The notes below the pieces were generated by a model. The model did not search any database and was not told the DNA's origin. It saw only the letters and a program-made list of their open reading frames with translations. DNA of 64,000 bases from Lachnospiraceae bacterium (lineage in GTDB: Bacteria; Bacillota; Clostridia; Lachnospirales; Lachnospiraceae): the NCBI GenBank assembly GCA_017479935.1, contig JAFVBO010000118.1, forward strand, positions 62,001-126,000, in the 5' to 3' direction. This document shows, piece after piece, positions 19,270 through 23,767 of this stretch. A program made the translations under genes and the position numbers. Position 1 is the stretch's first letter; every line of letters starts with the position of its first letter.

Positions 19270-19292
19270 TGCTGGCAGCTTTTATCTGAGTA

Positions 19293-19331
19293 AGTATATC
19301 ATATTTAAGAGTGTATTGGCAAGGGAAAACG
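19293..19331 (-). repeat. 39-bp repeat with minus-strand promoter, copy 1
   Basis: Identical over 39 bp to 23632-23670. On the minus strand it reads TTGCCA, 18 bp, TATACT, a good sigma-A promoter. Here it would drive transcription antisense into the 3' end of the Sel1 membrane gene. It lies in the 261-bp gap before the double-TIR gene; no strong plus-strand promoter is visible in that gap. Confidence 0.85.
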
Positions 19332-19530: not shown

Positions 19531-22188
19531 ATGAGTTATTTGAAATGTCAGACTATGGCTGGTGTATCTCCGCAGGGCAAGCCAAGAGTGTTCTTTTCCT
19601 GTCACCCGGATGATTTTGCAGAATACAGTCAAAAGGTTTTCTATGAGTTGTTCAGCTATGTTAACTGCGCCATCTATTACATGGATCCTACAGAAAAGTA
19701 TGATCTGGAAGAGGTTTTGCAGGATGTTTCGCAGATGCAGCTGTTTGTTTTCGCGGTGACGAAAAAGCTGCTTCTGACTCCGAACCCCGGAATGGATAAG
19801 TTGTTCCCCTTCGCGGAACAGCTTCATATTCCGGTACTTCCTCTCGTTCAGGAGGAAGTGGACCCCAGAACATTCAGCAAGCGATTTGGCGATCTCCAAT
19901 ATTTAAGTCGTGCGGATATAACCGCTACTTCCATCAGCTATGAGGAAAAACTGAAGAAATATCTGGATTCGGTGCTGGCGAATGACAAACTGACCCAAAA
20001 AGTGCGGGAAGCGTTTGATGCATACATTTTTCTGAGTTATCGAAAAAAGGACCGAATGTATGCTCAGAAACTGATGAAAAAGATCCATGAGGCCGATTTT
20101 TGCCGGGATGTAGCCATTTGGTATGATGAGTTTCTGGTTCCGGGAGAAAACTATAACAACGCCATCGGTGAGATGATCGAAAAGAGTGATCTGTTTGCGC
20201 TGGCTGTCACCCCAAACCTGGTGAATGAAATCAATTACGTCCAGACGACGGAATACCCGGCAGCCTTCTTACGGGGGAAAACCGTGCTGGCTGCGGAAAT
20301 GGTAAAGACCAGTCGTGCCATGCTGGAAAGCCAGTACAAAGAGATTCCTCCCTGTGTTGACCCAGACGATAAAAAACGCTTTGAAAAAGAACTGGCTCAA
20401 AAACTTCCTTCGTTACAGGGGCACCCACTGAAGGATGATTCCGAACATCTTTATTACATGGGGCTTGCCTATCTGGGCGGTATTGATGTCGAAGTAGATC
20501 ATGAAAAAGCCGTTTCGCTGATTACGGCTTCTTCCGATAAAGGCTACTCCGAGGCTACCCTGAAGCTGGTTTCCATGTATAAAAACGGAGACGGTGTCGC
20601 GCGCAGTTACCAGAAAGCGATTGAGCTGCAAAATCATTATATCTCCGTTCTTGAGAAGTTCTATGAGGCCGTTGAACAGATCCGCGTCTCCTCCACACTT
20701 GCGGAAGCCCTGAGGGAGTTAAGCTCCTTGTATGAGGCTGCCCGTGACAAAAACGCCTGCAGGAGCACGCTGAAAAAACTGATTCGCCTTTGTGAGCAAT
20801 ATGATCAGGCATGGGGATATCCCTATAAACTGGCCGCTACTCAATTATTAGGAGATCTTGCCCGTTCAGAAGGAAACTTTCAGGAAGCAAAGCAATATTA
20901 TCTGGACACGCTTGCGCAATGCCAGAATGACCTGGATAAGGGAAGGAACGCAGGAGCTGTTTTTGCGGCTCAAAGCTATCTGATGTTGGGAAACCTGTGC
21001 GCAACCTATCATGATCGGGAGGAGGCAAAATCTTATTATCTGAAAGCAGTAGCCCTTGCCGATCAATATAAGGATAAACACGATTTTACTTCCACATATT
21101 TGATTGCCTATCAGGCCCTCGGCAACCTGGCTACAGAAACCGGAAATCTGTCGGTTGCAAATGATTATTTACAGAAGACCCAGGACCTGTACCTGGATTT
21201 GCAGAAATCCGGAAAAAAAGTGGCAGGCAGTCTGGCTGGTCTGATGCATGAAAAAAATGAGCTGGAACAGGCGCAAAAATACAGGAAAAGCCTTGATGAT
21301 ATTTACAGAGACTACCGCATTCATATGAGTTCGGATCCGGAACAGGACAAAAAAGACTTTAAGAAAATGCAGAGTCGGATCCAGGAACTGGATCGTTTAA
21401 ACAGCCAGAACATGAATTATTCTTCTGAAATCGAGAAGCGTAAGGAAGCTCTGGAAACTATGAAAGAGTACGCAACCAGTTCCGAAATCGCGGATCGCCG
21501 TAAGTATGCAGATGAATGTATTGTGTTAGGACTCGTTCAGATACAAAACAATGAATATGAAGAGGCGGAACCGCTTCTTCGCAAAGCGCTTGGCTTTTAT
21601 GAAGAATACGGAAAGACCCATGGAGACGATGAGGTTCGTCTGTCGTTGATGTCGATCTATACAGGACTCTTTGAGATTGCCGTTTCGAAGGGGGATACAG
21701 CGGAGGAAACCCGGCTGGGGGACAAGGTTCTTGCCCTGAACGAGGAAGCCGTGAAAAAGCGCGGCAACGCCAGGGATTACGTTCTTCTGATCAATTCCTA
21801 TATCGATCGGGGAGCCAAAGAAAAAGCGCATGGTCATCTGGATAAGGCAGAAAAGATGATAAAGAAAGCGATTGATGCAGGAAAAGAGCTTGTCCGGAAG
21901 GATCCAGGCCGGAACCACAAAGAGCTCTTGTCTGCGTCCTATTATGCGCTTGCATACCTGCGAAGTGACGCAAAGCCGGACAAAGACCCTCTTCTGTCCT
22001 CTTATCGGATTATGTCTGAAATGCAAAAGGATTTTCCGGACGATCAGAAGATTCTGAAGGAGATGAGCAAGATTCGTGCAAGCCTGATGAAGATAGGTGT
22101 AAAACTGTCCGAGATTGACGAGCTTGCGAAGAAAGCGGGAAAAACCGGGTGGTTATCGCGATTGTTTGGAAAAAAACATGGCTTTTGA
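19531..22188 (+). CDS. Double TIR domain protein with Sel1 and TPR repeats
   Basis: From the ATG at 19531 (GGGAGGG ribosome binding site) the product is 885 aa. Residues 18-108 form a first TIR-like domain (RVFFSCHPDD...PVLPLVQEE). Residues 162-258 form a canonical TIR (AYIFLSYRKKD, WYDEFLVPGENY, and Glu241 in TTEYPAA, the likely NADase glutamate). In the first domain the aligned position appears to be Leu91, so it is probably inactive. One or two Sel1 repeats (about 305-370) and a long TPR-like helical region follow, ending in WLSRLFGKK. TIR plus repeat scaffolds are typical of prokaryotic NAD-depleting defence or signalling proteins. A TTG at 19408 would add 41 residues. Confidence 0.8.
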   Translation: MSYLKCQTMAGVSPQGKPRVFFSCHPDDFAEYSQKVFYELFSYVNCAIYYMDPTEKYDLEEVLQDVSQMQLFVFAVTKKLLLTPNPGMDKLFPFAEQLHIPVLPLVQEEVDPRTFSKRFGDLQYLSRADITATSISYEEKLKKYLDSVLANDKLTQKVREAFDAYIFLSYRKKDRMYAQKLMKKIHEADFCRDVAIWYDEFLVPGENYNNAIGEMIEKSDLFALAVTPNLVNEINYVQTTEYPAAFLRGKTVLAAEMVKTSRAMLESQYKEIPPCVDPDDKKRFEKELAQKLPSLQGHPLKDDSEHLYYMGLAYLGGIDVEVDHEKAVSLITASSDKGYSEATLKLVSMYKNGDGVARSYQKAIELQNHYISVLEKFYEAVEQIRVSSTLAEALRELSSLYEAARDKNACRSTLKKLIRLCEQYDQAWGYPYKLAATQLLGDLARSEGNFQEAKQYYLDTLAQCQNDLDKGRNAGAVFAAQSYLMLGNLCATYHDREEAKSYYLKAVALADQYKDKHDFTSTYLIAYQALGNLATETGNLSVANDYLQKTQDLYLDLQKSGKKVAGSLAGLMHEKNELEQAQKYRKSLDDIYRDYRIHMSSDPEQDKKDFKKMQSRIQELDRLNSQNMNYSSEIEKRKEALETMKEYATSSEIADRRKYADECIVLGLVQIQNNEYEEAEPLLRKALGFYEEYGKTHGDDEVRLSLMSIYTGLFEIAVSKGDTAEETRLGDKVLALNEEAVKKRGNARDYVLLINSYIDRGAKEKAHGHLDKAEKMIKKAIDAGKELVRKDPGRNHKELLSASYYALAYLRSDAKPDKDPLLSSYRIMSEMQKDFPDDQKILKEMSKIRASLMKIGVKLSEIDELAKKAGKTGWLSRLFGKKHGF

Positions 22189-22271
22189 CAGTTGCGTTTA
22201 GCTATCCCGTGTGTTTCTTTATAGAAGCAATGAAACATGTTCACGACACATTCAAAGAAGGAGGTACTCAC

Positions 22272-22589
22272 ATGGGACTGTTTGATTTGTTTGGCAAGAA
22301 GATCTCTCTGGATGAAATGGGAAAATTCAACAAACAGGTTCTGACGGACGCTCTGGAACTGGTCATTAACAGTGGAATTGGCGATCAGTACAAGGAGTTG
22401 TTCAAGTCGGTAAAGGAAGGCAGCTTGAAAAAAGCACAGTTAAAGGAATGCCAGGCTTTCGTCAAGTGGTATGAGGATCTGGTAGCGTCTCAGCCGAATC
22501 TGAAGGCATCGTTCGGAGAAGCCAACTATAAGGCTACGATCAAGGCTCTTCAGGATATTGGCAGTTTTGCAGCCAGGAAACTTGGATGA
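22272..22589 (+). CDS. Small helical protein downstream of the TIR gene, 105 aa
   Basis: A 105-aa protein starting MGLFDLFGKK, with an excellent AAGGAGGT ribosome binding site 8 bp before ATG 22272. The rest is predicted helical and mildly basic; no family is recognised. It lies 83 bp after the double-TIR gene, on the same strand, with no terminator between. Its N-terminal LFGKK motif repeats the C-terminal motif of the TIR protein (RLFGKK). A partner or regulator role is inference from position. A long palindrome ends the unit. Confidence 0.75.
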   Translation: MGLFDLFGKKISLDEMGKFNKQVLTDALELVINSGIGDQYKELFKSVKEGSLKKAQLKECQAFVKWYEDLVASQPNLKASFGEANYKATIKALQDIGSFAARKLG

Positions 22590-22714: not shown

Positions 22715-23587
22715 TTAATGTTTTTTCTCTTCGTAAATCTTGATCAGAGCCTGCGTACCAAGCTTCGATCCGCCTTCGGCATCGAGTTTTTCAAACATGG
22801 AAAGGACGTCGGCAAGAACCGGCAGGGCGGTTTCGCGCTCCGTGGCTTCTTCCATGGCGATGCGCATGTCCTTGATGTAGTGATAGACAAAGAAACCGGG
22901 ATCGAAGTTTTCCGCCAGGATCTTGTAGCCGTTGTTGCTCATCTGCCAGCTGCCGGCGGCACCGGTGCTGATGGTGTCTAACATGGTCTTTGTGTCAAGG
23001 CCGACGGATTTTGCGTAGGTGATGGCTTCGCAGGTGGAAGCTAATGCGCCGGAAAGCGCGATCTGGTTGGCCATCTTGCAGTGCTGGCCCATGCCGGCGC
23101 CGCCTTCGTACACAATGTTGGTGCCCATGGCGGAAAAAACATCCTGGGCGGCATCAAAGACTTCCTTGTCGCCGCCGACCATAATGGCCAGCGTGCCCTT
23201 CTGCGCGCCGATGTCTCCGCCGGAGACGGGAGCGTCTAAGGCATACACGCCGCGCGCCTTGGCTGCCTCATAGATGCGGACGGACAGCTTCGGGCTGGTG
23301 GTGGTCATATCGATGATGGTGGCCCCTGCCGGAACATTTTCGATAATTCCGTTCTCGCCAAAGTACACTTCTTCCACATCCTTCGGGAAGCCCACGATAG
23401 TGATCACCACGTCCTTGCCGGCGGCGCATTCTTTCACGGAAGGGCACCAGATAGCGCCTTCGGATACGACCGCATCGGCTTTTTCTTTTGTGCGGGTGTA
23501 GACGGACACTTCAAAACCATGCTTCATCAAGTTACGAACCATCGACTGTCCCATGACGCCGACGCCGATAAAACCAATTTTCTTCAT
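22715..23587 (-). CDS. garR: 2-hydroxy-3-oxopropionate reductase / 3-hydroxyisobutyrate dehydrogenase family
   Basis: A 290-aa beta-hydroxyacid dehydrogenase. The NAD(P)-binding loop GFIGVGVMG is at 5-13, the substrate-binding DAPVSGGDIGA at 118-128, and the catalytic Lys171 in HCKMANQ. Family members reduce tartronate semialdehyde to glycerate or oxidise 3-hydroxyisobutyrate; the two cannot be separated from sequence alone, so the symbol is tentative. The ATG at 23587 has GGAGGT upstream. Its promoter lies in the 39-bp repeat at 23632-23670. Confidence 0.8.
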   Translation of the reverse strand: MKKIGFIGVGVMGQSMVRNLMKHGFEVSVYTRTKEKADAVVSEGAIWCPSVKECAAGKDVVITIVGFPKDVEEVYFGENGIIENVPAGATIIDMTTTSPKLSVRIYEAAKARGVYALDAPVSGGDIGAQKGTLAIMVGGDKEVFDAAQDVFSAMGTNIVYEGGAGMGQHCKMANQIALSGALASTCEAITYAKSVGLDTKTMLDTISTGAAGSWQMSNNGYKILAENFDPGFFVYHYIKDMRIAMEEATERETALPVLADVLSMFEKLDAEGGSKLGTQALIKIYEEKKH

Positions 23588-23631
23588 AAATACCTCCATA
23601 CAGCGCACGGGCGCTTTTATTAATCTCAAAG

Positions 23632-23670
23632 AGTATATCATATTTAAGAGTGTATTGGCAAGGGAAAACG
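23632..23670 (-). repeat. 39-bp repeat with minus-strand promoter, copy 2 (dehydrogenase promoter)
   Basis: Identical to 19293-19331. The -10 TATACT (plus-strand 23632-23637) and -35 TTGCCA (23656-23661) are 18 bp apart, correctly placed and oriented for the dehydrogenase gene starting at 23587. Confidence 0.85.
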
Positions 23671-23767
23671 CTGACAGGATCACCGAATCGCTCCGAGTTC
23701 AAATATTTAGGACTGTTCAAATTCCACTAAAAATGGTATGATTAATTGTTGGCCTAAGTAGAATGTC

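Follow-up and report, generated by a model that had tools for sequence, protein, structure and literature searches.

Domain architecture and predicted active sites

We propose that P0001, an 885-residue TIR-TIR-Sel1-TPR protein, is a TIR sensor-enzyme whose second TIR domain makes an ADPR-type signal that is read, in the family at large, by RyR-domain proteins, and we put the probability of this reading at roughly 55%. The gene (19531–22188, plus strand, as are all features of the protein given below; identified by its open reading frame, Pfam matches, relatives and AlphaFold2 models) lies in the window, that is, the entire 64,000-nucleotide stretch analysed, which corresponds to C20:62001-126000, a contig segment of a 3.73-Mb draft genome (G000). 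The first TIR domain, TIR1 (residues 16–152; 19576–19986), is divergent, silent in Pfam in this copy, and is supported by hhalign, AlphaFold2 and VIA. TIR2 (residues 160–298; 20008–20424) is of the catalytic type and matches Pfam TIR_2 over residues 166–246 with 34.2 bits (cut-off 28). The Sel1-type helical repeats that follow (residues ~304–380; 20440–20670) still belong to the constant head of the protein; their Pfam Sel1 match at residues ~308–339 scores 23.6 bits, below the cut-off, and the region gives PDB Sel1 matches (E 1.6e-11) and is modelled as helices by AlphaFold2. The variable TPR tail, a presumed sensor (20833–22080), is marked by its divergence relative to the head and by Pfam matches to TPR_12, TPR_14 and TPR_8, with several TPR models exceeding their cut-offs.

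TIR1 of P0001 has no Pfam match, yet TIR_2 is found in 7 of 77 first domains of the family alignment (best 4e-7), and the TIR1 and TIR2 profiles align with a probability of 98.0% (hhalign). Since a search of PDB sequences with the TIR1 profile returned nothing relevant, structure was needed to place this domain. AlphaFold2 models of TIR1 alone and of the 390-residue head reached pLDDT values of 92.2 and 91.6, respectively, and the TIR1 model is matched (VIA) by a SPARTA TIR (Z 13.2; rmsd 3.1; 128 residues), by MyD88 (Z 12.4) and by SARM1 (Z 12.0), nearly all among the 50 listed matches being TIRs. For TIR2 within the head model, the best structural match is the SARM1 TIR (Z 12.3; rmsd 2.8; 124 residues), with SPARTA TIRs at Z 11.8 (VIA), and the best PDB match to its sequence profile is AbTir, a known NADase. 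Both domains display, at a mean pLDDT above 91, the flavodoxin-like sheet and the TIRs as top structural matches that are expected of the TIR superfamily. Foldseek searched with the 390-residue model yielded mostly Der/EngA GTPases and Sel1 folds, and nothing on the tandem arrangement.

The predicted catalytic glutamate of TIR2, Glu241 (codon 20251–20253), is present in every one of the 90 relatives, and among these heads the FLSYRKKD, WYDE and PGE blocks show almost no variation; TIR2 combines the αC-region glutamate of a catalytic TIR with an intact BB loop (PGE almost invariant). TIR1 conserves other residues, shows no PGE/WYDE loop of the TIR2 kind in any family member, and in P0001 carries Leu91 (codon 19801–19803) instead of the αC-region glutamate; hhalign places Leu91 opposite Glu241. 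Among 90 relatives, column 91 contains Glu (55), Asp (17), Val (9), Leu (5), Ile (2), Ala (1) or Phe (1), and is thus acidic in 72 of them (80%). Eight changes between acidic and other states are needed on the tree, in which P0001 belongs, together with L057, to a small clade that has lost the acid. Because most relatives keep Glu or Asp at this position, Leu91 represents a derived loss and no family trait. A paralogue located 62 bp downstream of a full-length family member (L075:10519-12165) has lost TIR2 while retaining TIR1, with Val at position 91, the Sel1-like part and the TPR repeats, and such a loss suggests that TIR1 functions without catalysis. Taken together, the sequence comparisons suggest that TIR1 serves chiefly in assembly or regulation and not in catalysis, a reading to be applied cautiously to those copies that keep the glutamate: as 80% of the relatives retain an acidic residue, their TIR1 may possess a residual or second active site. 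P0001's own TIR1, devoid of the glutamate, is probably non-catalytic.

These results confirm the architecture given in the first-pass annotation and support its interpretation in part. Made from the letters alone, the annotation had proposed two TIR domains followed by Sel1 and TPR repeats, had singled out Glu241 as the likely catalytic residue, and had paired it by manual alignment with Leu91, a pairing that hhalign reproduces. It had named structure prediction as the check on TIR1 and a fold unlike that of a TIR as the outcome that would count against it; the predicted fold is TIR-like. Its further idea of an inactive, regulatory pseudo-TIR stands insofar as the Leu91 copy is probably non-catalytic, and does not extend to the family, in which loss of the acid is not general.

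A constant head joined to a variable tail

A pattern-based scan across 84,980 species genomes yielded 369 candidate relatives, and the best 80 of these 369 (79 distinct loci, all from other species) carry the head and originate almost exclusively from gut Clostridia, with tandem copies at several loci. Recurrence at 79 loci greatly exceeds what chance could produce. The tandem-TIR layout, previously taken to be uncommon, is thus that of a large clostridial family. Its distribution is patchy: seven relatives with the head were found among the 299 genomes of the same taxonomic family, and in a class-wide sample the head is present in 8 of 391 genomes, across 7 families. The closest relative of P0001 (L039) is 67% identical over the 285 residues located on its contig. 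Neighbour clustering over the 79 loci indicates that genes next to family members are generally not conserved, and a search of the literature, with partial coverage, found nothing on TIR-Sel1 proteins in Lachnospiraceae.

No family member was found on sequenced plasmids or phages, and only two on IMG/VR contigs. On the first of these contigs (L121:3-10874), the family member is located downstream of an AAA (McrB-like) and a McrC-type gene, a gene for a 250-residue protein and a long lipoprotein-like gene; on the second (L120:5796-15937), it is flanked directly on one side by genes for an integrase of the Tn916 type and an excisionase-like protein, and on the other by ParA/ParB-type genes. At a further locus (L170:5664-11135), a gene for an 819-residue single-TIR protein is followed on the same strand, after 22 bp, by a family member.

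The head is constant, with a length of ~390 residues, and is joined to tails of 161–1274 residues. Two members (L053 and L076) share 79% of their head residues and have tails without any match to each other; for L049 and L076 the identity is 77% in the head vs. 28% in the tail, and for the tandem paralogues at L041 it is 65% vs. 22%. Heads exhibiting 77–80% identity thus pair with tails at 28% or undetectable similarity. Judged from sequence, such fast divergence of the tail would be the pattern expected for a sensor under diversifying pressure.

RyR-domain genes next to TIR genes

A Pfam survey of proteins adjoining family genes revealed the RyR domain (PF02026) in 4 of 133. The RyR neighbours are of three types: membrane proteins of 470–490 residues with a channel-like N-terminus, a middle part that looks Rossmann-like on visual inspection and RyR at the C-terminus (TM-RyR); HD-like proteins of 550–710 residues with RyR at the end (HD-RyR); and stand-alone RyR proteins of 93–115 residues. 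A RyR gene is encountered within 5 kb at 12 of 97 family loci, while 0.04 would be expected from RyR density, or 0.29 from one RyR gene per genome (P ~5e-16); the few near-duplicates in the 97-locus set include no RyR-linked locus. Loci of the tandem-TIR family itself supplied the seeds for the family-level RyR models; at 9 of the 12 linked loci (L005/L154, L043, L081, L088, L104, L108, L109, L153 and L171) the RyR domain exceeds the Pfam cut-off. The spacing is often operon-like (19–145 bp, same strand): a TM-RyR gene precedes the TIR gene by 19 bp at L154 and by 31 bp at L043, a stand-alone RyR gene lies 145 bp upstream at L171, and at L159 an HD-RyR gene on one side (49 bp) and a TM-RyR gene on the other (58 bp) share the strand of the family member; at L109 the RyR and TIR genes overlap. 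In the tree, RyR-linked members are spread over several clades. At L039, the closest relative of P0001, the TIR gene is immediately preceded on its own strand by genes for an HD-RyR and an LRR protein, the RyR domain being degenerate (18.9 bits).

RyR domains occur in 44 of the 299 genomes, with 5 of the 8 that encode the tandem-TIR family having one, vs. 39 of the 291 that do not (p 0.002). In the 299 genomes, 9 of the 50 RyR matches have a listed TIR_2 match no more than 2 kb away (0.09 expected), and the fetched loci contain more RyR/TIR pairs (L173, L174, L177). Since RyR genes also adjoin TIR genes of other architectures (L173, L174, L177, L155, L157, L190 and, next to a TIR-LRR gene, L181), the link between TIR and RyR is wider than the tandem-TIR family. 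Seven RyR proteins contain the canonical potassium-channel filter TVGYGD, and two of them were confirmed to combine Ion_trans_2 with RyR. Fusions of RyR with a two-TM potassium channel (TVGYGD) are seen in relatives of the host (L137, L138, L140, L148-L151), and a TIR gene adjoins at least one TVGYGD-RyR fusion gene (G058, L138).

Earlier comparative genomics of nucleotide-signalling domains in prokaryotes may mention RyR domains. Within the partial coverage of our literature search, the only work found to name RyR domains alongside TIR domains in bacteria is a 2026 preprint on phages (PMC13232231). It describes phage RyR-domain proteins that either bind 2'/3'cADPR with nanomolar affinity or cleave it, with a His, a Trp three residues on, a second His and an Asp as ligand residues (PMC13232231). 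The corresponding HxxW is kept in 25 of the 25 RyR domains that we compared, and the distal His and Asp in most of them.

No RyR gene is located beside P0001, and the RyR protein of its genome, a channel-like TM-RyR protein of 512 residues (L152:6683-8218), is encoded on another contig (C103) without an adjoining TIR gene; its RyR domain scores 22.6 bits, which is under the Pfam cut-off. Because this protein is unlinked, coupling between P0001 and RyR would act in trans, and the RyR step is the weakest one for this particular copy.

Proposed mechanism and alternatives

In the mechanism that we propose, the variable TPR tail would sense a trigger that probably comes from a phage or another invader, and the constant head would then assemble. 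TIR1 would contribute TIR-TIR contacts and regulation, in a mainly non-catalytic manner, while TIR2 would cleave NAD+ through Glu241; the Sel1 repeats would connect head and tail. The product would then be an ADPR-type signal, in keeping with the ADPR products made by other TIR domains, to which the RyR proteins encoded by adjacent genes (channel-like membrane, HD-RyR or stand-alone) would respond, acting as effector, as a sink for the signal or as its hydrolase. For P0001, whose own locus has no RyR gene, the putative reader would be the TM-RyR protein of contig C103. A role of P0001 in phage defence is plausible. More specifically, and at what we consider odds of about one in three, one may envisage a TIR-to-RyR axis in gut Clostridia in which a cADPR-type molecule made by TIR enzymes, including those of the tandem-TIR family, gates channel-like RyR proteins, some with a TVGYGD K+ filter, or HD-RyR proteins, with the reader for P0001 encoded elsewhere in its genome.

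The most serious competitor, which we regard as possible although rather doubtful, is that P0001 is a stand-alone abortive-infection NADase: the TPR tail would sense infection, TIR2 would deplete NAD+ and the cell would die, RyR being accessory, for example in removal of the ADPR product. About 85 of the 97 family loci have no RyR gene within 5 kb, although many flanks are short, and this absence at most loci speaks for such a protein acting by itself, as do the NAD+ hydrolase activity of AbTir, the top PDB match of the TIR2 profile, and the example of SpbK-like single-protein TIR effectors, which operate in this way according to PMC12847820. However, RyR genes are found far above chance beside both the tandem-TIR family and other TIR genes, and the recurrent channel-like RyR proteins resemble effectors more than clean-up enzymes.

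We consider it unlikely that the protein has no antiviral role and serves housekeeping or stress signalling, with TIR and Sel1/TPR repeats as protein scaffolds and with or without NAD+ turnover. The genes flanking P0001 in the window do encode ordinary metabolism and housekeeping functions, PADLOC (threshold 1e-5; seven neighbouring proteins) matched nothing that would point to a defence island, and most relatives are likewise found among unrelated neighbours. Such a role is hard to reconcile, however, with the patchy spread over families, the tandem arrays of paralogues, the fast divergence of the tails, the invariance of the catalytic glutamate, and the members located on viral-collection contigs beside McrBC (one) and a Tn916-type integrase (one).

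That P0001 and the small downstream reading frame P0002 form a two-gene system, toxin with inhibitor or sensor with adaptor, is highly improbable: the 84-nucleotide gap, the shared strand and the strong ribosome-binding site would fit, but P0002 is an orphan and accompanies none of the relatives.

The locus and the flanking DNA

P0002 (22272–22589, plus strand) encodes 105 residues without a recognised domain, as judged from its open reading frame, Pfam and homology searches. Both P0001 and P0002 have good ribosome-binding sites (GGGAGG; AAGGAGGT), no terminator-like hairpin was found in the 84 nucleotides between them, and P0002 is possibly cotranscribed with P0001. No relatives of P0002 were found in the 299 genomes of the family or in viral contigs, phages and plasmids, 381 class genomes gave three doubtful partial matches only (E 0.001–0.006), and P0002 does not appear in the neighbour clustering of the 79 family loci. 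We therefore rejected it as a partner. The first-pass annotation had seen in it an operon partner and had regarded conserved linkage of the two genes in relatives as decisive; a small gene without a Pfam domain does lie downstream as described, but the neighbourhood survey shows no such linkage.

Two other candidates were likewise rejected. The gene upstream of P0001 (17425–19269, plus strand) encodes a 614-residue membrane protein with seven Sel1 repeats (Pfam Sel1, 4.5e-53), and was dismissed as a conserved partner, just one other Sel1-type neighbour being present in its cluster. A C-terminal LFGKK motif common to P0001 and the start of P0002 was dropped, being rare in relatives. An Rfam scan of the P0001 region gave nothing.

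A repeat search detected a direct repeat of 51 nucleotides (38 of them exact), the two copies of which (left, 19281–19331; right, 23620–23670; no strand assigned) are the only ones in the genome and flank P0001, P0002, a palindrome and a dehydrogenase gene. The repeat carries a sigma70-like promoter on the minus strand, which in the right copy comprises the promoter-like site of the dehydrogenase gene (22715–23683, minus strand) and in the left copy faces antisense into the Sel1 gene. The repeat may mark an insertion or duplication that introduced the TIR block. The palindrome, downstream of P0002 (22624–22707), is near-perfect with 40-nucleotide arms and belongs to a dispersed, REP- or MITE-like repeat with 116 genomic matches (58 per strand).

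Implications

Bacterial, plant and animal immunity have TIR enzymes, and the nucleotide signals made by them, in common. If TIR enzymes are genetically tied to RyR membrane proteins, the notion that RyR domains have an ancient function as receptors for ADP-ribose signals of TIR origin becomes directly testable, and the TIR-to-RyR axis, if true, would constitute a bacterial counterpart of the animal cADPR–ryanodine-receptor pathway. The tandem-TIR family also illustrates cleanly how an enzymatic head can stay constant while its sensor tail changes rapidly, and it provides an example of a fused helper TIR, with one natural copy that lacks the catalytic TIR.

Comparison with known systems

In Thoeris, ThsB is a TIR synthase of cADPR isomers and is paired with ThsA. 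P0001 shares with this system a TIR enzyme as sensor and, possibly, an ADPR-type messenger for a separate reader protein, and it matches the PADLOC ThsB model weakly (22.5 bits, E 1.3e-5). However, its two TIRs are fused to Sel1 and TPR repeats and the candidate reader is a RyR-domain protein; ThsA (SIR2-SLOG or Macro-TM) was found neither among its seven neighbours (PADLOC, 1e-5) nor as a dominant type among the neighbours of relatives. SPARTA, which consists of TIR-APAZ and a short pAgo, requires TIR-TIR assembly for activation, and TIR1 is structurally closest to SPARTA TIRs; P0001 differs in having both TIRs in one chain together with a repeat sensor, and neither APAZ nor Argonaute was matched in P0001 or its neighbours (Pfam, PADLOC). 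Large single-protein TIR effectors, such as plant TIR-NLRs and bacterial SpbK, likewise couple a sensing part to a TIR effector head, and NLRs, too, have a fast-changing repeat tail, whereas P0001 has a tandem TIR, and Pfam detects no NACHT or NB-ARC NTPase switch in it.

The RyDEP phage RyR proteins (PF02026; PMC13232231) contain the same RyR domain as the TIR-linked genes, which retain the HxxW ligand motif. In contrast to RyDEP, the TIR-linked RyR genes are mostly chromosomal, adjoin TIR genes and frequently encode fusions with membrane or HD domains, and for these reasons their products are probably signal readers and not agents of phage counter-defence. P0001 belongs to neither Thoeris, SPARTA nor the NLRs, and in its working it would resemble Thoeris or a single-protein TIR NADase.
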